From positions 62,001-126,000 of the forward strand of contig NZ_SOZH01000011.1 in NCBI RefSeq assembly GCF_004519295.1: DNA of 64,000 nucleotides. Reading direction: 5' to 3'. Within the stretch, counting starts at the first letter, position 1; the number at the start of each line of letters is the position of its first letter. The stretch comes from Cellulosimicrobium funkei (lineage in GTDB: Bacteria > Actinomycetota > Actinomycetes > Actinomycetales > Cellulomonadaceae). Positions 14,334 to 24,983 of the stretch are shown here, one piece after another. The notes below the pieces were generated by a model that was not told where the DNA came from, searched no databases, and saw only the letters and a list, made by a program, of their open reading frames with translations. The translations under genes were made by a program, and so were the position numbers.

Positions 14334-15104
14334 ATGAGGATCGCTGTGGTGGGTGGGACGGGGACCGTCGGTCGGCACGTCGTGGCGGGCCTGGCCGCGC
14401 GCGTCCACGAGGTGCGGGCGCTGAGCAGGCACGCGCGGGAGCACCCCGTCGACCTCACGACGGGCGCAGGTCTCGCGGCGGCGCTCGACGGCGTCGACGT
14501 CGTGGTCGACGCGAGCAACACCGCGACGTCGTTGCGGCACGTGCGCGCGGCCGTCGTCGACGGCACGCGGCGCCTGCTCGCCGCCGAGCGCGACGCCGGG
14601 GTGCGGCACCACGTGCTCGTGTCGGTGGTCGGGTGCCACGATGTGCCGATGGCCTACTACGCCGCCAAGGTCGCGCAGGAGCGCGAGGTCGCGGACGGGG
14701 GCGTGCCGTGGACGGTCGTCGCCGCGACCCAGTTCCACGAGCTCGTCGCCGCGACGCTCGGGGCCGCGGCGCGCCGGGGCGTCGTGCCGCTGCTGCGCGC
14801 CCCGGTCCAGCCGGTCGCGGCCGCCGAGGTCGGCGCCGCGGTCGCGGACGCGGCCGTGCGCGGCCCGCTCGGCGGCACCACGACCGTCGCGGGTCCCGAG
14901 GCGGTCGACCTGCGCGACCTGGCGCGCGCCTGGCGCGACGTCACCGGCTCGCGCGCCGTCCCCGTCCGGGTGCCGCTCCCCGGCGCGCTCGGCCGCGCGC
15001 TGCGCGCCGGCGGCCTCACCGACCCGCACCCCGACGTGCGCGGCACCACGACGTTCCGCGACTGGCTCGCCGCGCAGCACGCCGAGCGGGCGGGGGCCCG
15101 GTGA
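14334..15104 (+). CDS. NAD(P)-binding epimerase/dehydratase-type oxidoreductase, ECF41 partner
   Basis: This 256-residue protein is an atypical short-chain dehydrogenase (NmrA/epimerase-like). The N-terminal Rossmann motif [16 protein letters not shown] is followed by [10 protein letters not shown] and by [12 protein letters not shown], which contains the Tyr-x-x-x-Lys pair. I chose the ATG at 14334 because the ECF41 promoter at 14299-14325 would start transcription there, giving a leaderless mRNA. The upstream ATG at 14298 overlaps the -35 element and cannot be transcribed from it. The stop overlaps the GTG of the sigma factor. ECF41 factors are known to be encoded next to carboxymuconolactone decarboxylases, oxidoreductases or epimerases; the substrate is not known. 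Confidence 0.85.
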
Positions 15105-16036
15105 CCGGCCCGGCCGCGGACGACCTCGCGCGCGCGTTCGAGGCCGAGCGCCCGCGCCTCCTGCGGCTCGCGTACACGACGACCGGCTCCTGGTCCGACG
15201 CCGAGGACTGCGTCCAGGACGCGTGGCTGCGGCTGCGCACCCAGGACGCGGGCTCGATCCGCAACCTCGCGGCCTGGCTGACGACGACGGTCGGGCGGCT
15301 CGCGCTCGACGTGCTCGGGAGCGCGCGGGCGCGCCGCGAGCGCTACGTGGGGACGTGGCTGCCGGAGCCGGTCGTGACGACCCCGGGCGCCGCCTCGCCG
15401 GTCGCCGCGGGCGCCGTCGACGCGGCGGACCCCGCCGACCGTGTGACGCTCGACGAGGAGGTGAGCATGGCCCTCCTCGTCGTGCTCGAGCGCCTCTCCC
15501 CCGCGCAGCGCGTCGCGTTCGTGCTCCACGACGTGTTCGGGCTGCCGTTCGACGAGGTGGGCGACGTCGTCGGGCGCTCGCCCGCCGCCGTCCGCCAGCT
15601 CGCGGCGCGCGCCCGCAAGGACGTGGAGGCGGGGCGGCCGCGCGGGACCGCGACGCGCGCCGAGCAGGCGCGCGCCGTCGAGGCGTTCGTCGCGGCCTGC
15701 TCGGACGCCGACCTGCCGGCCCTGCTCGCGGTGCTCGACCCCGACGTCGTGCTGCGGGGCGACGGCGGCGGCAAGGTCCGCGCGCTGCGGCACACCGTGC
15801 GCGGGGCGGGGACGGCAGGTCCCGTGCTGCTCAGCTACCTGCGCACGCCGCCCGAAGCGATGCGCCTGGTCGACGTCAACGGCGCGCCCGGGCTGCTCCT
15901 GCGCGACGGGACCGGGGTGCTCACGGTGATCGCGTTCACGGTCGTCGGGGGGCGGGTCGCGGCGCTCGACGTCGTGCGCAACCCCGACAAGCTCGGGACG
16001 GTGCGCGCCGACCTCCTCGACGCGGACCCGGCATGA
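15101..16036 (+). CDS. ECF41-family RNA polymerase sigma factor with SnoaL-like C-terminal domain
   Basis: The 311-residue protein has sigma region 2 (about 10-75), region 4 (about 115-165) and a C-terminal SnoaL/NTF2-like extension (about 185-310) instead of a separate anti-sigma factor. All three hallmark ECF41 motifs are visible: WLPEP in the linker between regions 2 and 4, DGGGK in the extension, and NPDKL at the end. In this family the extension modulates sigma activity in cis. The GTG start overlaps the stop of the oxidoreductase gene (GTGA). Its predicted target promoter precedes that gene, so the pair is autoregulated. Confidence 0.93.
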   Translation: MTGPAADDLARAFEAERPRLLRLAYTTTGSWSDAEDCVQDAWLRLRTQDAGSIRNLAAWLTTTVGRLALDVLGSARARRERYVGTWLPEPVVTTPGAASPVAAGAVDAADPADRVTLDEEVSMALLVVLERLSPAQRVAFVLHDVFGLPFDEVGDVVGRSPAAVRQLAARARKDVEAGRPRGTATRAEQARAVEAFVAACSDADLPALLAVLDPDVVLRGDGGGKVRALRHTVRGAGTAGPVLLSYLRTPPEAMRLVDVNGAPGLLLRDGTGVLTVIAFTVVGGRVAALDVVRNPDKLGTVRADLLDADPA

Positions 16037-16988: not shown

Positions 16989-18518
16989 GTGACCGGTACG
17001 GTCACGGCCGTGGACGACGACGGCACACCCTCCCCCGAGCCCGCTACCGACCCCGGCACCGGCACCGGCACCGGCACCGGGACGGTCCCGCCACGGGCCC
17101 GACGGCGCGGCCCCCTCGTCGCGGTGGCCGCCGCGGGCGTGGGCGGCGTCCTCGCGGTGGTGGCCACCGTCGTCGGGCCGGCGGCGCTGCGCACCGCGGC
17201 CGAGCAGCCCGCCCCGACCACCTCGTCGGTCGCCCCGACGACCCCCGCACCCGGCGCGACGCCCGCGCCGACCTCCCCCGAGAGCGACCACGAGGCCGTC
17301 GCGGCGCGACTGCGGGCGCTGCCCGGCGTCGCGGCCGTGGATGCCCTGGGGACCGCGGGCGAGTCCGCGCGCGTCACGCTGGTCAGTCCGCTGCCGACAC
17401 CCGAGGAGGCGCAGCGCACCGCCGACGACGCGAGCGCGATCGTCGCCGCCGTGCCCGGCGGTGGTGCCTGGTCGCTCCGCGTCGAGGGCACGGGCGCGGG
17501 CGGCGGGACGTTCGCCGTCGCGCACGGCCCGGGCGCGGACACCGACCGCGGCATCGACCCGGCCACCGGGGAGCCCCGCCCCGAGCTCCTCGGGGCCGAC
17601 GCCGTGGCCGACGCCGTGCGCCTCGTCGCCCACGACCCCGTGCGCCGCGTGTTCCTGTCCCCGGGGTCCGCGTCGGTCGACGTCCGCGCGGCCGGGGACC
17701 TCGTCGCGGCCGCCGCGCTCGTCCGTGCCGAGGGCCGGGGGCTGACGAGCCTCGGTGTCGCCGGCGGCGCCGTCGGCACCTACGACGACGGCGGGCAGTC
17801 CGTCCCCGACGACGCGCTGCTCACCCTGCTCGGAGAGGTCGCCGCGGAACCTGGCGTGACGCAGGTCGTGCACGAGACCGCGCGGGACACGTTCCCGCCG
17901 AGACCCCTGCTCACCGTCATCACCTCGGGCGACGCCGCCGTGGTCGCGCGGACCCTCGACGGCGCCGCCTATGCCGGCCCGACCCTCGCGTACCAGGTCC
18001 ACGGCTCGACCGACGGCGGCGCGTCCGCGACGCGCTCCGGGTTCGTCGCGGGAGCCGCCGCACCGACGACCGGGACGCCCCCCGCGGGCGCGTGCGCCCC
18101 CGGCGACCTCACGCTCGGGGCCCTCGGGTTCGACGCCGCGGCGGGGCGCCGGTTCCTCACCGTCACGGCCCGCAACGACGGCACCGCGGAGTGCGTCCTC
18201 GCGGGCGCGCCCGCGGTCCGCTTCGTCGCCGACGACGGCTCGGAGACGGACGTGCTCCTCGAGCCGGACGACGACGGTCTCGCCCCGATCACGCTCGCGC
18301 CGGGCGCCACCGCCTGGGCCGCGCTCTCGTGGCGCGGTGGGTCGACAGCGGACGACCCGCCGCTCGTCACGACGCTGCTCGTGGCCCCGCACCCGGGAGA
18401 CCCCGAGTCGGTCGTCGGGCTCGCGGGGATCCCCGGCGTCGGGGACGGCCTCGACCTGCTCGGCGGCGGGACCGCGACGATCGGGTCGTGGACGCCCGCG
18501 CGGGAGCTCGCGAGCTGA
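16989..18518 (+). CDS. Membrane-anchored DUF4232 domain protein
   Basis: The 509-residue protein has a short cytoplasmic N-terminus containing a GT-GT-GT repeat (five hexamer copies of GGCACC in the DNA), a membrane helix (about 43-66), a Thr/Pro-rich linker and a large extracytoplasmic part. The C-terminal 140 residues look like DUF4232: CAPGDLTLGALG near 375, ECVLAGAPAVRF and a final WTPARELAS. Two cysteines about 45 residues apart could form a disulfide. The function is not known; such proteins are secreted or surface-held in actinobacteria. The GTG at 16989 is used; a second GTG at 17010 is also possible. Confidence 0.75.
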   Translation: MTGTVTAVDDDGTPSPEPATDPGTGTGTGTGTVPPRARRRGPLVAVAAAGVGGVLAVVATVVGPAALRTAAEQPAPTTSSVAPTTPAPGATPAPTSPESDHEAVAARLRALPGVAAVDALGTAGESARVTLVSPLPTPEEAQRTADDASAIVAAVPGGGAWSLRVEGTGAGGGTFAVAHGPGADTDRGIDPATGEPRPELLGADAVADAVRLVAHDPVRRVFLSPGSASVDVRAAGDLVAAAALVRAEGRGLTSLGVAGGAVGTYDDGGQSVPDDALLTLLGEVAAEPGVTQVVHETARDTFPPRPLLTVITSGDAAVVARTLDGAAYAGPTLAYQVHGSTDGGASATRSGFVAGAAAPTTGTPPAGACAPGDLTLGALGFDAAAGRRFLTVTARNDGTAECVLAGAPAVRFVADDGSETDVLLEPDDDGLAPITLAPGATAWAALSWRGGSTADDPPLVTTLLVAPHPGDPESVVGLAGIPGVGDGLDLLGGGTATIGSWTPARELAS

Positions 18519-18522
18519 CGCG

Positions 18523-20529
18523 TCACCCGAACGTCGCGGTGAACACCTGGACGCCGGGTGGGACGTCGAGCTCCACGAGACCCTCCGTCGGGCCGTCGCC
18601 CTCCAGGACGGGGTAGAGCGTCGGGCTGCCGGACACGTCGATCTCGCGGGTCGTGGTCCGCCCGTCCGTCGTGACGCGCGCCGTGACGGTGCCCTCGCCG
18701 CCGAGCACCGTGAACACGTCGGTCGAGCGGTACGCGAGACGCACGCGCGCGTCGTCGGACACGGCGGTCGCGCCCTGGAAGTCGACGTCCCACGTGCCGC
18801 CGAGCGAGAACGTGTCCTGCCGCTGGTCGTCGGCGAGCGTGAAGTCCTGCTGCCCCGCGGCGTAGCGCGGCTCGCCCGCGTAGTTGACGACGCGCTTGAT
18901 GGAGAAGTACGTCTCGGGCGTCGTCTCGTCCTGCGGGGTGGTGTCGCCGACGGCGGTGGGCTCGGGCAGCTCCACGCCCGGGTTCGCGTCCTCGAGGAGC
19001 TCGCGCACCAGGCGCTCGGTGTCCTCGTACCCGCCCTCCCCGAAGCGGATGTGGCGCACGGTCCCGTCGGCGTCGACGAGGTACTGCGCGGGCCAGTAGC
19101 GGTTCCGGTAGGCCGTCCAGGTCGCGTACGCGTTGTCCTGGGCCACGGGGTAGGTGACGCCGAGGTCCTGCGCGCCCGCGACGACGTTGCGCGTCTCGCG
19201 CTCGAACGCGAACTCGGGCGTGTGGACCCCGACGACCTCGAACCCCGCGCCGACGTCGCGGTAGCGGTCGTACCAGGCGTTGACGTGCGGGATCGCGCGC
19301 TGGCAGTTGATGCAGGAGTAGGTCCAGAAGTCGACGAGCACGACCTTGCCGCGCAGCCCCTCGAGCGTCAGCGCCTCGCCGCCCGGGGTGTTGAGCCACG
19401 TGTCGATGCCGCGCAGCTCCGGGGCGGTGCCGCAGTCCTCGAGCACGGGCGCGCCGTTCGAGCAGTTCGACAGCTCGCGGTTCTCGTCGGTGACGAGCCC
19501 GCCGAGGTCGAGCGCCTCGCGCACGGCGTCGTTCTCGTCGACCCGCTGCTGGAGCGCACCCGTGTAGTCGGGCAGGGCGCGCTGGAGCGCGGCGGGGAGG
19601 TTCAGCGCGAGCGCGCCCGCGAGCGCGATCATCACGACGCCGCCCGTGACGCGGATGCCGCGCGTGTGCCGCTGGAACCCGCGGACCCGCTCCGCGACGC
19701 GGCGTCCCGCGAGCGCGAAGACCAGGAGCGGGATCGCCGCCCCGACCGCGAACGACACCGTGAGGGCGACGGTGCCCGGGCCGATGTTCCCCGTCGCCCC
19801 GGCCACGGTGATCGCCGCGAGGACGGGACCAGCGCACGGCACGTACAGCACGCCGAGGCCGAGGCCGAGCACGAACGCCCCGCGGTCCTGGCGGGCGGCG
19901 CCGCGCCGTGCCCCGAGCGCCGCGACCCGCCGGAACGGCCGCTCCAGGACCTCCTCGACGCGCGGCACGATCATCCCGACGCCGATCGCGACGAGGAGCA
20001 CGATGCCCGCCCAGCGCAGCAGGTCCTGCGGGAGCCCGAGCGCGGTCAGCAGGAGGGAGCCGAGGAGCGTGAAGACGCTGAAGCTGAGGACCAGGCCCGC
20101 GATGACGAGGTAGGGGCGCCACGAGCGGCGCGTGGTCCGCCGCGTCGCGCGGCGACCGGGGCCACCGTCGGCCGGGGCGGCGGGCTCCGCCGCGTCCCCC
20201 GTCGGCAGGTCGAGGGCGAGCGTCCCGCCGCGCGTCGGCCGCGCCGCGACCTCCCGCGACCCGGCGGCCTCCGGCGCGCCGACCGGGCCACCCCGGCCAC
20301 GCAGCCCCGCGGCCGGGCGACCGCCGACGCGGACCGCGTCCGGGACGCCCGCGAACAGCCCCGGGGAGACGCCGCCCGTCCCGGTCTCCGCGGTGCCCGA
20401 CGGCGCCTCCCCCGTGCGCGCGCCCTGCACGCCGCCCGCGAAGAAGATGACGGGCAGCATGGGCAGGATGCACGGCGAGATCCCCGTGATGAGTCCCCCG
20501 AGCAGGCCGATGACGATGAGCGTCTCCAT
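18523..20529 (-). CDS. dipZ: DipZ-like thiol-disulfide transporter/reductase (CcdA-thioredoxin fusion)
   Basis: The protein (668 residues) joins a CcdA-type membrane domain to an extracytoplasmic thioredoxin-like domain and a C-terminal beta-sandwich. The electron-carrying cysteines are visible in SPCILPMLP at the start and YVPCAGPVLA in the middle. The thioredoxin-like domain has YSCINCQRAIPH (CxxC). About 100 disordered residues (roughly 30-130) are inserted between the first two membrane helices. The start METLIVIGLL at 20529 lies 7 bases after the -10 of a SigK-type promoter, so the mRNA is predicted to be leaderless. In Mycobacterium tuberculosis dipZ lies between the SigK targets mpt83 and mpt70. 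Confidence 0.88.
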   Translation of the reverse strand: METLIVIGLLGGLITGISPCILPMLPVIFFAGGVQGARTGEAPSGTAETGTGGVSPGLFAGVPDAVRVGGRPAAGLRGRGGPVGAPEAAGSREVAARPTRGGTLALDLPTGDAAEPAAPADGGPGRRATRRTTRRSWRPYLVIAGLVLSFSVFTLLGSLLLTALGLPQDLLRWAGIVLLVAIGVGMIVPRVEEVLERPFRRVAALGARRGAARQDRGAFVLGLGLGVLYVPCAGPVLAAITVAGATGNIGPGTVALTVSFAVGAAIPLLVFALAGRRVAERVRGFQRHTRGIRVTGGVVMIALAGALALNLPAALQRALPDYTGALQQRVDENDAVREALDLGGLVTDENRELSNCSNGAPVLEDCGTAPELRGIDTWLNTPGGEALTLEGLRGKVVLVDFWTYSCINCQRAIPHVNAWYDRYRDVGAGFEVVGVHTPEFAFERETRNVVAGAQDLGVTYPVAQDNAYATWTAYRNRYWPAQYLVDADGTVRHIRFGEGGYEDTERLVRELLEDANPGVELPEPTAVGDTTPQDETTPETYFSIKRVVNYAGEPRYAAGQQDFTLADDQRQDTFSLGGTWDVDFQGATAVSDDARVRLAYRSTDVFTVLGGEGTVTARVTTDGRTTTREIDVSGSPTLYPVLEGDGPTEGLVELDVPPGVQVFTATFG

Positions 20530-20535
20530 GCCCGG

Positions 20536-20564
20536 GGTTCGGACCGGCGGCCCTCGCGGATGGG
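20536..20564 (-). promoter_or_regulatory. SigK-type promoter of dipZ
   Basis: On the minus strand CCCATCC (ending at 20558) and CGAACC (20541-20536) are separated by 16 bases. The same motif pair with the same spacing precedes the fasciclin gene and sigK. Transcription would start at about 20529, the dipZ ATG. Confidence 0.8.
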
Positions 20565-20603
20565 TCCACCACGCGCCGGGTGCACGTCGGCGGGCGCACG
20601 ACG

Positions 20604-20631
20604 ACGGCCCCGACCGTCCGGTCGGGGCCGT
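20604..20631 (-). terminator. Terminator after the fasciclin gene
   Basis: Perfect 11-bp arms (ACGGCCCCGAC at 20604-20614, complement at 20621-20631) enclose a 6-nt loop. It lies 56 bases downstream of the fasciclin stop and upstream of the dipZ promoter, so it separates the two transcription units. Confidence 0.7.
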
Positions 20632-20686
20632 CAGGACCCGCTCGCGCGGGCCCACCGCGCGCCCGCTTCTGGACGCGCCGGGAGGG

Positions 20687-21388
20687 TCACATGGTCGGCA
20701 TGAGCACCGAGTCGACGAGGTACACGGTCGCGTTCTGCGTCATCACGCCACCGCACACGACGGCCGCGTCGTTGACCATGAGCTCGTCGCCCGATCCGGT
20801 CACCTCGACCGTGCCGCCCTCGACGGTCCCGTGCTCGCCGACGACCTGGTCGGGCGTGAGCTGGCCGGGCACCACGTGGTACGTGAGGATCTTCGTCAGC
20901 GTGTCGGAGTCCGTCTTCAGCGACTCGAGCGTCGCGGCGTCGATCTTGGCGAACGCGTCGTCGACGGGGGCGAACACGGTGAACTCGCCGCCGTTGAGCG
21001 TGTCGACGAGGTTGACGTCCGGGTTGAGCTCACCCGAGACGGCCGCGGTGAGCGTCGTGAGCAGCGGGTTGTTCGACGCCGCCACGGCGACGGGGTCCGT
21101 CGACATCCCGGTGATCGACCCGGCGCCGTCGGGCACCTGCTCCGCGTAGGCGGCACAGCCGGGGCCCACGAGGTTCGCGGCGGGGTCGGCCGCCATGTCG
21201 TCCGAGCCCTCGGTCGAGTCGTCGGTCATGTCGTCGGACGTCGAGTCGTCCGTCATGGTGTCGGACTGCGAGTCGGTCGTCGTCGAGTCGGACCCCGTGT
21301 CCGTGTCCGAGCTGCACGCGGACAGGCCGAGCACGGCGAGCGTGGCGATGCCGGCGACGGCGTACGACGTGCGGGTGCGAACGTTCAT
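20687..21388 (-). CDS. Fasciclin-domain lipoprotein (MPT70/MPT83-like)
   Basis: The 233-residue precursor has a lipoprotein signal peptide with lipobox LSAC (lipidated Cys about 25), then an acidic Ser/Thr/Asp-rich linker (about 26-70), then a fasciclin domain. Fasciclin motifs are [24 protein letters not shown] and [10 protein letters not shown]. In Mycobacterium the related MPB83/MPB70 are major SigK-dependent surface and secreted antigens; in other bacteria the domain mediates adhesion. A ribosome binding site, GAGGAGA, precedes the ATG. The SigK-type promoter lies 50 bases upstream. Confidence 0.92.
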
Positions 21389-21437
21389 CGGTCTCTCCTC
21401 GGGTCGTCGCCCCGCCGGTGCGGGGCGTCATGCCGAG

Positions 21438-21466
21438 GGTTCGGAGCGCCGCCCCGGGTGGATGGG
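21438..21466 (-). promoter_or_regulatory. SigK-type promoter of the fasciclin gene
   Basis: On the minus strand CCCATCC and CGAACC (plus-strand GGATGG at 21460-21465 and GGTTCG at 21438-21443) are separated by exactly 16 bases. The predicted leader is about 43 nt. Confidence 0.8.
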
Positions 21467-21522
21467 TCGAGATCAGCACGAGTTTCTCCCGCGCGCGTCC
21501 CGACCCCTCCGGGCCGCTGCGC

Positions 21523-22290
21523 TCAGCCGACGAGCGCGACCACCGGGTCCGTCGTGGGCTGTTCCGAGCCGCCCGCCGGCTCGACCGTCACGGCCATGCC
21601 GACGCCCGGCTCGTCCTGGACGAGCCGCGACGTGCTGCCGTCCTGGACGTCGAGGACGCCCGCCGAGACGACGGCGCCGTCGGGCTCGACCACCCAGAGC
21701 TGGTAGTCACGGTCGTCGCCCGCGTCCGGCAGGTCGGACGCGCGGAAGTACATGTCGTCGCCCGCCGCGAGGACGGACGCCTGCCCGCCGCCCGCCACGT
21801 CGCCGTGCAGGATCGTCGCGTCGGGGTCGGCGAGCATGCGCTCGATCGCGTCCGCCCGCGCCTCCAGGCGGGACTGCTCCTGCGTCGCGCGGACCGCGAC
21901 CGTGGTCGGGACGGCCACCGCGACCACCGCGGCCACGGCCGCCGCGAGCCCGGTCCAGCGTCGGCGGCGGGCGCGACGCGCGGCCGCGAGGTCGACGACG
22001 ACGCCCCCCGTGCTCTCCCCGGCGGACAGGGCCGCGTCCGCGGACGCGGCCACGCGGGCCAGGACGGCGTCGCGCAGCGCGGGCGGCGGTGCGCTCTCGA
22101 CGGTGAACGCCGCCACGACGTCGCGGTACTCGTCGAGCTCGCGCCGCGCGTCGGGGTCGGCCGCGAGCAGGCGCTCGACGGCGCGCCGCTCGACGTCGTC
22201 CACCGCGTCGAGCGCGTAGGCGGGGAGCAGGTCGCGGGCGTCCGGACGGTCGTCCGCGCCGTCACCGCGGGGCGTGGTCAGGTCAGCCAC
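21523..22290 (-). CDS. rskA: Anti-sigma-K factor RskA
   Basis: The 255-residue protein has a cytoplasmic N-terminal anti-sigma domain (about 15-90; LLPAYALDAVDDVERRAVERLL is typical of RskA), a single membrane helix (about 112-135) and an extracytoplasmic RskA domain (about 145-250; YQLWVVEPDGAVVSAGVL). It holds SigK inactive at the membrane until regulated proteolysis releases it. It starts with GTG, overlapping the sigK stop by 8 bases. The long disordered linker before the helix contains Arg-rich RRARRRRW as a cytoplasmic anchor. Confidence 0.92.
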   Translation of the reverse strand: MADLTTPRGDGADDRPDARDLLPAYALDAVDDVERRAVERLLAADPDARRELDEYRDVVAAFTVESAPPPALRDAVLARVAASADAALSAGESTGGVVVDLAAARRARRRRWTGLAAAVAAVVAVAVPTTVAVRATQEQSRLEARADAIERMLADPDATILHGDVAGGGQASVLAAGDDMYFRASDLPDAGDDRDYQLWVVEPDGAVVSAGVLDVQDGSTSRLVQDEPGVGMAVTVEPAGGSEQPTTDPVVALVG

Positions 22291-22921
22291 GACGCACCCC
22301 CAGGCAGTCGCGGAGCCGCAGGAGCCCGTCCCGGATGCGGGACTTCACGGTCGGCAGCGCGGCGTCGAGCCGCTCCGCGACCTCCCGGTAGGTGAGCCCG
22401 CCGTAGTACGCCTGCACGACCGCCTCCCGCTGCGTCGCCGTGAGCGAGTCCAGGCACCGCCGCACGGCCGCGCCCTCGAGACGTCGCTCGACGTCCTCCA
22501 CCACCACGTCCCGCGGTGCCGCGGCCGTCGAGGCGTCCACGTCGCGCTGGTCGCGGTCGCGGCGCGCCTGCTCGGCCCGCACGCGGTCCACCGCGCGCCG
22601 CCGGGCGAGCGTGGCGACCCAGGTTCGCGCCGAGCCGCGGGTCGCGTCGTAGCGCGCCGCCGTCTGCCACACCTCCACCATCACCTCCTGCACGACCTCC
22701 GCCGCGTGGTCCGGGTCCCGCAGGACCCCCAGGCACGTGCCGTACGCGACCGGCGCGAGCGCGTCGTAGACGGGCGCGAACGCCGCGGGGTCGCCGCCGG
22801 CGCACGCCGCGAGGGCGGCGTCGACCGCCGGGTTCGTCGTCACGGGAGGTGGCACCCGGTCAGTGTGCAGCACGGGCGCCTCCCGCACGCGCTGCGGCGC
22901 GTCGACCACGGCTCTCGGCAC
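22283..22921 (-). CDS. sigK: ECF sigma factor SigK
   Basis: The protein has ECF region 2 (FAPVYDALAPVAYGTCLGVL, AAEVVQEVMVEVW) and region 4 (LDSLTATQREAVVQAYYGGLTYREVAERL, PTVKSRIRDGLLRLRDCL), of the SigK/ECF19 type. The GTG at 22921 has a ribosome binding site GGGAGGT and lies about 40 nt after the predicted transcription start. A second GTG at 22873, also with GGGAGG upstream, would give 196 residues, closer to the usual SigK length. The next gene is its anti-sigma factor rskA. A SigK-type promoter stands in front, so the operon is autoregulated. Confidence 0.9.
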   Translation of the reverse strand: MPRAVVDAPQRVREAPVLHTDRVPPPVTTNPAVDAALAACAGGDPAAFAPVYDALAPVAYGTCLGVLRDPDHAAEVVQEVMVEVWQTAARYDATRGSARTWVATLARRRAVDRVRAEQARRDRDQRDVDASTAAAPRDVVVEDVERRLEGAAVRRCLDSLTATQREAVVQAYYGGLTYREVAERLDAALPTVKSRIRDGLLRLRDCLGVRRG

Positions 22922-22968
22922 CCGACCTCCCGTCGCCAGCGCCGTCCCGGTCCGTCCGGGACATCCTG

Positions 22969-22997
22969 GGTTCGGCGCCGACGCGCGGACGGATGGG
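22969..22997 (-). promoter_or_regulatory. SigK-type promoter of sigK-rskA
   Basis: Plus-strand GGATGGG (22991-22997) and GGTTCG (22969-22974) read on the minus strand as CCCATCC-N16-CGAACC. This is the third identical motif in 2.4 kb and implies positive autoregulation of sigK. Confidence 0.8.
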
Positions 22998-23018
22998 TCC
23001 CCGCCCCGCGGGCACCGC

Positions 23019-24167
23019 TCAGAGCGCGCGTCGGGCGCGGACCGCCGCCGCGAGCTCCTGCAGGAGGTCGGCCGTCGTGTCCCAGTCGATGCACGCGTCC
23101 GTGACGGACTGCCCGTAGACGAGGCCGCTCGGCGCGGGCTTCTGCGCGCCCGCCACGAGGAAGCTCTCCATCATGAGGCCCGTGATGCCCTGCTCGCCCT
23201 CGGCCAGCCGTGCGGAGACCTCGCGCACGACCTCCGCCTGGCGCACGTGGCTCTTGCCGGAGTTGCCGTGCGACGCGTCGACCACGAGCCCGTGCTCCGT
23301 GACCCCGCCGCGACCCGAGGTGCGCGCGACCGCGAGCGCCGCCGCGACGTCGTCGGCCCCGTAGTTGGGGCCCGAGCGCCCGCCGCGCAGGATGACGTGG
23401 CAGTCGGGGTTGCCCGCGGTCTCCACGGCGGCGGCCCGGCCGAGCGAGTCCATGCCGAAGAACGTGTGCTCGCTCGCCGCGGTGATGCAGCCGTCGACCG
23501 CGATCTGCACGTCGCCGTCGGTCGCGTTCTTGAACCCGACGGGCATGGACAGGCCCGAGGCGAGCTGGCGGTGCACCTGCGACTCGGCGTTGCGCGCGCC
23601 GATCGCGCCCCACGACACCGCGTCCGCGATGTACTGCGGGCTCGTCGGCTCGAGGAACTCGCACGCGGCCGGGACGCCGGCGTCGAGCACGCCGAGCAGC
23701 ACCTCGCGCGCGAGGCGCAGGCCGTGGTGCACGTCGTGCGACCCGTCGAGGTGCGGGTCGTTGATGAGGCCCTTCCAGCCCACGGTCGTGCGCGGCTTCT
23801 CGAAGTAGACGCGCATGACGACCATGAGGTCGTCCGCGAGCTCGTGCGCGACGGCGGCCAGGCGCCCCGCGTACTCGAGCGCGGCCTCGGGGTCGTGCAC
23901 CGAGCACGGGCCGACGATGACGAGGAGGCGGTCGTCGTCGCCCGCGAGGACGTCACGGACCTCGCGGCGCGACGTCGTCACGAGGTCGCTGCGCGTCGCA
24001 CCGAGGGGCAGGTCGGCGAGCATGGCGCGCGGCGCGGGGAGGGCGTCGAGCGCGCGGACCCGCAGGTCGCTCGTGCGCGCCTGGAGCTCGGGGCTGTCCA
24101 CGGGGTCGACGGTACTCGTCGCGCCGTCGGTCGTCGCGGTCTCGGGCGAGGTGGTGGTGCTGGTCAC
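23019..24167 (-). CDS. aroF: 3-deoxy-7-phosphoheptulonate (DAHP) synthase, type I
   Basis: The enzyme joins phosphoenolpyruvate and erythrose 4-phosphate to start the shikimate pathway. The 382-residue protein belongs to the AroF/AroG/AroH family: VIVGPCSVHDP (metal Cys), MRVYFEKPRTTVGWKGLINDP, PVGFKNATDG, GGRSGPNYG and VDASHGNSGK are all present. Upstream is a 173-base leader with a short aromatic leader peptide and a terminator hairpin, so expression is probably set by attenuation. The GTG start follows a ribosome binding site (AGGAGCC). About 35 N-terminal residues are Thr/Ser-rich and poorly conserved. Confidence 0.95.
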   Translation of the reverse strand: MTSTTTSPETATTDGATSTVDPVDSPELQARTSDLRVRALDALPAPRAMLADLPLGATRSDLVTTSRREVRDVLAGDDDRLLVIVGPCSVHDPEAALEYAGRLAAVAHELADDLMVVMRVYFEKPRTTVGWKGLINDPHLDGSHDVHHGLRLAREVLLGVLDAGVPAACEFLEPTSPQYIADAVSWGAIGARNAESQVHRQLASGLSMPVGFKNATDGDVQIAVDGCITAASEHTFFGMDSLGRAAAVETAGNPDCHVILRGGRSGPNYGADDVAAALAVARTSGRGGVTEHGLVVDASHGNSGKSHVRQAEVVREVSARLAEGEQGITGLMMESFLVAGAQKPAPSGLVYGQSVTDACIDWDTTADLLQELAAAVRARRAL

Positions 24168-24281
24168 GGGGGGCTCCTGGTCTGTGCGGCGGGGTCTGGG
24201 AACGCCGTGAGTCGGGATGCCCAGCGGCGCTCCACCGGCCTGCTGCCGCCCGTGGTCCCGGAGCGGCCCGTCTCACGACGA

Positions 24282-24313
24282 AGGGCCCGGACGCGGTCCG
24301 CGTCCAAGGCCCT
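24282..24313 (-). terminator. Attenuator hairpin upstream of aroF
   Basis: The stem pairs AGGGCC plus CGCGTCC-type segments across a three-base loop (24282-24295 with 24299-24313), broken by one small internal loop. It lies 28 bases after the leader-peptide stop and 115 bases before the aroF start. This is the place expected of a transcription attenuator. Confidence 0.7.
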
Positions 24314-24340
24314 GTGCTGGCTCCGGGTGGTGATCTGTGG

Positions 24341-24406
24341 TCAGGCTGACGCCCGCACGGCCCCACCGGGAGCCTGCGTAAAGCGCCAATACCACTGAGA
24401 AGTCAC
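24341..24406 (-). CDS. Aromatic leader peptide controlling aroF
   Basis: The ORF starts at GTG 24406 and encodes 21 residues beginning MTSQWYWRF, with Trp-Tyr-Trp-Arg-Phe in five consecutive positions. Stalling of ribosomes on these codons when aromatic amino acids are scarce would prevent formation of the downstream terminator. A -10 box, TACGGT (24413-24418), preceded by TGC lies exactly 6 nt upstream of the GTG, so the leader mRNA is itself leaderless. The ORF is too short for routine gene prediction. No other gene fits the 318 bases between aroF and the Nudix gene. Confidence 0.85.
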   Translation of the reverse strand: MTSQWYWRFTQAPGGAVRASA

Positions 24407-24485
24407 GAGCCGACCGTAGCACAGCGCCTCCGAGGGGCGGACGGGCCGTCTCACGGGCCGGTCGGGCAGCGCCTACGCTCGGGGC

Positions 24486-24983
24486 ATGCCGATCCCCGAG
24501 TTCGTCGCCGCCCTCCGGTCCCACGTGGGGACCGACCTGCTGTGGATGCCGGGGGTGTCGGGCGTCGTCGTGGACGACGCCGGCCGGGTGCTGCTCGGGC
24601 AGCGCGCCGACTCCGGGCAGTGGGCCGTGATCAGCGGGATCCTCGAGCCGGGCGAGGACCCGGCGGTCGGGCTCGCGCGCGAGGTGCTCGAGGAGACGGG
24701 CGTCGAGGTGGTGGTGGACGCGCTCGTCGCGGTGACGGTCACCGAGCCGATGGAGTACCCCAACGGCGACCGGTCGCAGTACCTCGACCTCGCGTTCCTG
24801 TGCCGCCCGGTGTCGCCGGCGGCCGCCGCGGCGGCGCACGTCGCGGACGACGAGTCGCTCGCGGTCGCGTGGTTCGCCCCCGACGCCCTGCCCGACGACG
24901 TCGCGCGCTCGTCGACCGAGCGTCTCGGGCACGCGCTCGCACGCCTCGCCGACCCCTCAGCCGGCCCGTTCTTCGTCCGCTGA
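24486..24983 (+). CDS. Nudix hydrolase
   Basis: The 165-residue protein has a complete Nudix box G-x5-E-x7-REVLEETGVEV starting at GILEPGED (about 58-80), which binds metal and hydrolyses nucleoside diphosphates linked to another moiety. The specific substrate cannot be told; the segment W-x-P-GVSGVVVDDAGRVLLGQRAD resembles mutator-type or ADP-ribose-type enzymes of actinobacteria. A -10 box, TACGCT (24474-24479), lies 6 nt before the ATG, suggesting a leaderless mRNA. Its 3' end overlaps the convergent rsbP-like gene by 27 bases. Confidence 0.9.
   Translation: MPIPEFVAALRSHVGTDLLWMPGVSGVVVDDAGRVLLGQRADSGQWAVISGILEPGEDPAVGLAREVLEETGVEVVVDALVAVTVTEPMEYPNGDRSQYLDLAFLCRPVSPAAAAAAHVADDESLAVAWFAPDALPDDVARSSTERLGHALARLADPSAGPFFVR

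Follow-up and report, generated by a model that had tools for sequence, protein, structure and literature searches.

The minus strand of a 64,000-nucleotide stretch of Cellulosimicrobium funkei DNA (contig NZ_SOZH01000011.1, positions 62,001 to 126,000; hereafter the window) carries four genes that, from upstream to downstream, encode the extracytoplasmic function (ECF) sigma factor SigK, the anti-sigma factor RskA, whose gene adjoins sigK on the same strand, a fasciclin lipoprotein and the membrane protein DipZ. A first-pass annotation of this DNA had described three copies of the motif CCCATCC-N16-CGAACC, in front of sigK-rskA, the fasciclin gene and dipZ; all three were found, each with a spacer of exactly 16 bases, at the positions and on the strand listed in Table 1. 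We analysed these candidate SigK promoters, the genes they precede and their counterparts in related genomes.

Table 1. Predicted SigK promoters and genes of the cluster, in window coordinates.
Feature	Position	Strand	Details
Predicted SigK promoter of sigK-rskA	22969..22997	-	-35 CCCATCC 22997-22991, N16, -10 CGAACC 22974-22969; predicted transcription start 22962 (G), leader ~41 nt
Predicted SigK promoter of the fasciclin gene	21438..21466	-	CCCATCC-N16-CGAACC; predicted start near 21431, leader ~43 nt
Predicted SigK promoter of dipZ	20536..20564	-	-10 at 20541-20536, six bases, then ATG; predicted start 20529
sigK, ECF sigma factor	22283..22921	-	212 aa; start GTG 22921, GGGAGG upstream
rskA, membrane anti-sigma factor	21523..22290	-	255 aa; start overlaps sigK end by 8 nt
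MPT70/MPT83-like fasciclin lipoprotein gene	20687..21388	-	233 aa; lipobox Cys25
dipZ	18523..20529	-	668 aa from ATG 20529

SigK scores 233.3 bits against NF007228 in the NCBI profile search, above the curated cut-off of 226, and matches the solved SigK of Mycobacterium tuberculosis (PDB 4nqw_A) at E 4.4e-43. Its residues Cys156 and Cys206 align with Cys133 and Cys183 of the M. tuberculosis protein (residue numbers from a passage of PMC7509140), and both are kept in 102 of 102 distinct relative sequences. RskA contains PF10099 (E 1.1e-24; 87.6 bits, cut-off 29.4) and PF22618 (E 4.8e-6; 27.1 bits, cut-off 27), matches NF052375 at 2e-49, and has a single hydrophobic stretch with a hydropathy peak near residues 113-133. 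The fasciclin protein matches PF02469 (1.4e-28) and MPT70 (PDB 1nyo; E 2.2e-61); its FAS1 domain is most MPT70-like, and both the cysteine pair and an MPT83-type lipobox are present, with Cys78 kept in 75/75 and Cys212 in 72/72 of the sequences that cover those positions. DipZ is composed of a CcdA/DsbD-like membrane part, a TlpA-like thioredoxin domain with a CINC site and a C-terminal module (PF02683, PF00578, PF17991), so that the paired membrane cysteines, the TlpA-like CxxC and the C-terminal module expected of a full-length DipZ lie in a single protein, and it matches the solved DipZ ectodomain (PDB 5cyy) at E 1.1e-116; several comparisons used the range 18523-20532 as query, which has one extra codon in front. 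The best named matches to SigK come from a Sphaerisporangium-titled record (99% identity), followed by Cellulosimicrobium cellulans and C. funkei (98%), in a collection whose results may omit the record of the window itself. In QAPD01000061.1 (locus L121, titled Sphaerisporangium cinnabarinum ATCC 31213) the SigK, RskA, fasciclin and DipZ genes share 94-99% identity with their counterparts in the window, which suggests a misnamed or mixed record.

Within the window the exact motif occurs at the three sites only. With up to three mismatches it is found 29 times against 34.15 expected, and because such matches are no commoner than chance only near-exact ones are informative; a genome scan at two mismatches returned 159 sites against 70 for the reversed control and was set aside as too noisy to extend the regulon alone. 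The first-pass annotation had proposed a genome scan, with the concern that the motif might prove common at unrelated genes. The exact form occurs three times in 4.38 Mb, always within this 2.5 kb, and for it the concern lapses, but it comes close to holding for the variant CCCGTCC-N16-CGAACC, which has 55 sites in 17 genomes of the genus against 22 for the reversed control, three of them in G098, a genome of the genus without a SigK match. At a background of about three per genome, this variant was rejected as evidence by itself. A GCTC extension precedes the -10 element in 5 of the 55 sites, which stand before DUF4383 genes (two), oxidoreductase genes (two) and dipZ (one). Since the orthologous dipZ promoters of four relatives carry CCCGTCC, this heptamer appears usable as a -35 element. 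Chance occurrence of the motifs, given the high G+C content of the genome, would fit the lack of excess at three mismatches and the frequency of the CCCGTCC variant, yet this explanation is almost certainly wrong: for the exact sites it is refuted by the genome count and by the contrast between genomes with and without SigK given below, and orthologous positions retain the motif across genera while the spacers diverge.

The contrast comes from a sample of 121 genomes of the family, in which the presence of SigK was defined by a match at E 1e-30 or better. SigK was present in 71 genomes, and 50 had no SigK match. The exact motif with a spacer of 15-17 gave 251 matches over the whole sample, against 17 for the reversed pattern. 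SigK-bearing genomes held 232 of the matches (3.27 each; control 8, or 0.11 each) and the 50 others 19 (0.38 each; control 9, or 0.18 each), with two or more exact sites in 61/71 and 3/50 genomes, respectively. G098 has no fasciclin match and a single motif match, with a spacer of 15. A site lies upstream of sigK in all 30 loci closest to ours in the sample, our own included. Promoters were counted with repeated sequences taken once and with matches that start closer than 60 nt to a locus edge excluded; once a demand for 400 unambiguous bases downstream was dropped, which regained L029 (sigK) and L121 (dipZ), there were 70 distinct sigK promoters and 33 sigK loci without a site. A pyrimidine-purine step is found at the predicted start in 34/34 dipZ, 39/39 fasciclin and 68/71 sigK distinct promoters, supporting the start position.

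On this evidence the three sites are very probably SigK promoters, and we hold with high confidence that the locus represents the SigK-RskA system of Cellulosimicrobium, with two targets in one locus under matching promoters. The autoregulated three-promoter regulon of the first-pass annotation is supported in this respect by the sites before sigK and by the way sites track SigK presence. Another ECF factor, or some DNA-binding regulator, might use the motif with sigK as a mere neighbour, given that ECF factors can overlap in promoter preference and that the genome has other ECF genes, one of them in the window at 15101-16036. This is highly improbable, as the exact sites follow SigK genome by genome and include one before sigK itself, as the 16-base spacing and the pyrimidine-purine step look like promoters rather than operators, and as SigK sites are described as highly conserved in Actinobacteria in a passage of PMC7509140.

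Several points weigh against the reading as a SigK-RskA system with these targets. Four of the 71 SigK-bearing genomes have no exact site at all, and 33 SigK loci have none within 420 bp of sigK; seven of these are family-type (L062, L068, L116, L117, L151, L165, L265), the rest belonging to other genera. The motif columns themselves served to pick the sites, which leaves the flanking columns, the distances and the co-occurrence as independent evidence, and the relatives share ancestry, so that the counts do not represent independent events. The similarity of the C. funkei RskA to the solved RskA structure is weak (E 0.069). Both additional candidate targets in the C. funkei genome, a DUF4383 gene and a molybdopterin oxidoreductase gene discussed below, carry the CCCGTCC variant with its background of about three per genome, and among the close orthologues scanned the oxidoreductase site is common only to our genome and its sister G106. 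In L062, L068, L116/L265 and L117 a SigK site instead precedes the gene of a lipoprotein, which is the next one upstream of sigK. This lipoprotein, of about 430-450 aa and with halves alike by eye, lies between the SigK site and sigK-rskA in L062 (5914-7203), L068, L116 and L117; the L062 protein gave no Pfam match at E 0.001, and the fetched stretches of these four loci hold no fasciclin match.

Fasciclin orthologues were found in 53/121 family genomes, all 53 of them SigK-bearing, and in 52/53 the gene lies within 6 kb of sigK. The linked sigK-fasciclin arrangement is therefore ordinary for the family; linkage, which the first-pass annotation had presented as unusual, is the rule there, and an mpt83-sigK-rskA cassette is already in print (in a passage of PMC7509140). 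The layout is collinear in most Cellulosimicrobium loci, whereas in Isoptericola, Promicromonospora, Myceligenerans, Oerskovia, Sanguibacter and Krasilnikoviella the fasciclin gene is convergent and dipZ divergent. Despite these rearrangements the sites generally stay with their genes, with the exceptions of L151, which has no exact site before sigK, and of L062, L068, L116 and L117. Among 80 named loci around SigK relatives, the fetched stretch contains a fasciclin match in 41 and a dipZ match in 28. Grouped by genus, 33 of these loci are family-type, 28 with fasciclin and 27 with dipZ; the other 47 (Micromonospora, Nocardiopsis, Streptomyces, Arthrobacter and others) include 13 with fasciclin and one with dipZ. 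In the more distant genera the -10 element is mostly CGAAT where a site is found, as opposed to CGAACC here, and many loci have no site near sigK.

The system resembles the mycobacterial SigK-RskA regulon in its sigma factor, anti-sigma factor, fasciclin and DipZ families, its promoter type and the cysteine pair of SigK. Each target has its own predicted SigK promoter, as do mpt83, dipZ and mpt70 of M. tuberculosis according to a passage of PMC9861118. The SigK regulon of M. bovis and M. tuberculosis is described, in passages of PMC10540498, as occupying two genomic loci, unlike the arrangement here, which joins one fasciclin gene and dipZ to sigK in a single locus. A cassette of Actinobacteria and Yersinia, mpt83-sigK-rskA (Veyrier 2008, cited in PMC7509140, where its discoverers describe it), likewise links fasciclin, sigK and rskA with a SigK site; the present cluster differs from that description in including dipZ with its own, apparently leaderless, promoter. 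In the cskE-sigK-dipZ island of Corynebacterium pseudotuberculosis (PMC3078919) dipZ also lies beside sigK and an anti-sigma gene, but the passage describing that island lists no fasciclin gene. The same source states, citing Veyrier 2008, that among Actinobacteria only pathogens have full-length dipZ, a statement that the environmental genera with dipZ found here contradict.

The dipZ promoter differs from the other two in its distance to the start codon: the A of the ATG at 20529 is the seventh base (+7) after the -10 hexamer, at the predicted start of transcription. The same spacing was found in 29/29 distinct family dipZ promoters with the exact motif and in five further family dipZ loci with one mismatch, which gives 34/34 distinct promoters selected without requiring an ATG (L102, being the same locus as L143, was left out of the one-mismatch re-examination; a comparison of flanks took 36 dipZ segments because it also compared 10 bases upstream). 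None of the 34 has an insertion or deletion between the -10 element and the ATG, as compared with distances of 47 to 75 for fasciclin. A Shine-Dalgarno sequence was seen in 0/34 dipZ genes, versus 27/27 fasciclin and 15/16 DUF4383 genes, and an in-frame start codon stands at +7 in only 1/41 fasciclin and 4/70 sigK promoters. dipZ thus combines the two sequence features of a leaderless mRNA, a missing Shine-Dalgarno sequence and a start codon at the promoter-predicted start, and the suggestion of the first-pass annotation that its -10 element implies a message beginning at the ATG gains considerably from the comparison. The fasciclin promoter in most Cellulosimicrobium loci also has an ATG at +7 (21431, minus strand, in the window), where a frame of 133 codons begins in the window. 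This ATG was rejected as the fasciclin start in Cellulosimicrobium because it is out of frame with the gene and because an ATG at +7 occurs in only 7/41 distinct fasciclin promoters.

The spacing might instead be an inherited accident, with dipZ leadered in practice through read-through from the fasciclin message or through an upstream in-frame start. In most Cellulosimicrobium loci dipZ does come after the fasciclin gene in the same orientation, the dipZ frame of the window is open up to a GTG at 20655, and shared ancestry could account for the constant distance. We consider this rather unlikely. Isoptericola, Promicromonospora, Oerskovia and others keep the spacing although their dipZ is divergent from the fasciclin gene; all 34 promoters are free of insertions and deletions in the interval that varies so widely before fasciclin; an in-frame stop inside the dipZ promoter of two of the 34 relatives excludes an upstream start there; and 27/34 dipZ genes have no alternative start before the first membrane helix.

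A second, mycobacterial-looking family bears on the same question. A DipZ match was found in 22/151 of its genomes, with the order fasciclin-dipZ-fasciclin in L267. Of 22 anchored dipZ loci (one of 23, L288, had no anchor and was dropped; the best of several in-frame starts was taken per locus), 11 have a CGAA that places the start codon at +7; their -35 boxes vary more, with 1 to 4 mismatches to CCCATCC, and some of these promoters may therefore not belong to SigK. The other 11 lack this -10 element, and many of them are of a divergent DipZ type. That half of these genes keep the +7 spacing also argues against an accident. Leaderless dipZ inside an otherwise leadered regulon looks constrained, judging by this geometry. 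We lean, with some reserve, toward a broader proposal: that dipZ has long been selected to be leaderless, its spacing locked in two families and several layouts while its co-targets are leadered, giving two translation regimes in a regulon that reaches DUF4383 and, repeatedly, a molybdopterin oxidoreductase. Searches of a literature collection without most subscription papers returned, among the matches listed, no paper that treats leaderless messages and dipZ together and none on sigK in these genera.

Comparable geometry was seen at other genes. In Micromonospora loci L152 (7386), L153 (7402) and L154 (7349) a long reading frame starts with an ATG exactly at +7 of a SigK-type site located after rskA; in L152 this frame is a protein kinase gene, and the arrangement looks like another leaderless SigK target. 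In Nocardiopsis/Streptomonospora loci L168 (3308), L169 (3174), L172 (3546) and L176 (3431) a molybdopterin oxidoreductase gene begins with a GTG at +7 of a SigK-type site and precedes the fasciclin gene and sigK-rskA.

Two genes elsewhere in the C. funkei genome are preceded by a one-mismatch site, CCCGTCC with the GCTC extension. On contig 15 such a site begins 76 bp upstream of a DUF4383 gene, and on contig 2 another begins 82 bp upstream of a PF00174 oxidoreductase gene. A site with at most one mismatch was found in 18/18 DUF4383 orthologues scanned, our own included, versus 1/11 paralogues scored (12 paralogue loci, from 30 loci, were fetched, and L224 yielded no score). SigK is present in all 18 genomes. 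The DUF4383 membrane-protein gene is very probably an additional SigK target on this pattern of conservation. A gene for a 184 aa protein with no Pfam match (L262, 3506-4060) starts inside the final part of the C. funkei DUF4383 gene, which suggests a two-gene operon under the SigK-like site. The molybdopterin oxidoreductase gene is a possible further target, graded lower because of the background of its CCCGTCC site. As a conserved family target it was rejected: orthologues occur in 83/121 genomes, and in the 30 loci scanned the site was present in our genome only. One of the 30 loci, L241, is a contig-end fragment whose upstream region, read separately (L261), has the site. Homologous oxidoreductase genes with SigK-type sites occur in two other family genomes (L096, L098), and in Nocardiopsis-type loci oxidoreductase homologues (47 to 54% identical) head the SigK-type promoter upstream of fasciclin, with GTG at +7.

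These sites bear on the first-pass annotation's picture of an unusual closed circuit confined to the three promoters. The three exact sites of the genome agree with it; taken in full, however, it is quite improbable, with the DUF4383 site conserved in every orthologue scanned and lying, as does the possible oxidoreductase target, on another contig, and with linkage the family rule and the cassette in print (PMC7509140). In relatives, extra exact sites precede DUF4383, CHRD secreted, DUF1775, CopC, Rieske, small LuxR-type and molybdopterin oxidoreductase genes, and some precede no nameable gene; these were fetched from a chosen part of the matches listed (36 loci without sigK and four with it), and ten proteins were searched against Pfam. 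The sites at L064 (4263), L067 (4318) and L093 (4204) stand before small LuxR-type DNA-binding proteins of 69-88 aa (Pfam for L093).

In the mechanism suggested by these promoters and by homology, RskA, a single-pass membrane protein, would keep SigK inactive until an extracytoplasmic and/or redox signal releases it to bind RNA polymerase. In M. tuberculosis SigK is bound by the N-terminus of RskA, Rip1 cleaves RskA, RskA can also activate, and a disulfide in SigK stabilises the SigK-RskA complex (all from passages of PMC7509140); the invariant SigK cysteine pair may likewise tie the switch to redox state. Released SigK would transcribe its own operon, the fasciclin gene and dipZ from CCCATCC-N16-CGAACC and, elsewhere in the genome, very probably the DUF4383 gene and possibly the molybdopterin oxidoreductase gene. 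The fasciclin and sigK messages are predicted to carry ribosome-binding sites in leaders of about 40-45 nt, and the dipZ message to start at its own ATG and carry none, so one promoter type would feed two translation modes, the geometry being observed and its use presumed. DipZ would move electrons from the cytoplasm outward via its membrane cysteines to the CINC thioredoxin site and on to extracytoplasmic disulfides, for which the conserved fasciclin cysteine pair is a plausible client; the disulfides of mycobacterial MPT83 and MPT70 are mentioned in this connection in a passage of PMC9861118. The simplest idea for leaderlessness is that it keeps DipZ synthesis going, or limits it, when ordinary initiation is affected. 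Under the proposal of two translation regimes, the disulfide carrier could be made in conditions favouring leaderless initiation.

The locus is a well-supported member of a known system, whose rarity and closure had been over-stated and whose locked leaderless dipZ promoter had been under-stated. Known mostly from work on tubercle bacilli, the SigK-RskA-fasciclin-DipZ system is now placed in tractable environmental actinobacteria, hosts in which the SigK signal and function could be worked out. The promoter is sharply defined against a natural SigK-plus/SigK-minus control, DUF4383 is a new candidate target, and the regulon offers a natural contrast for asking why dipZ stays leaderless while co-regulated genes do not.

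An Rfam search of 18000-24500 returned nothing at the gathering threshold. Elsewhere in the window, on the plus strand at 14334-16036, an NmrA-like oxidoreductase gene shares 4 nt with the gene of a 311 aa ECF sigma factor with a long C-terminal extension, which we take to resemble ECF41-type factors.

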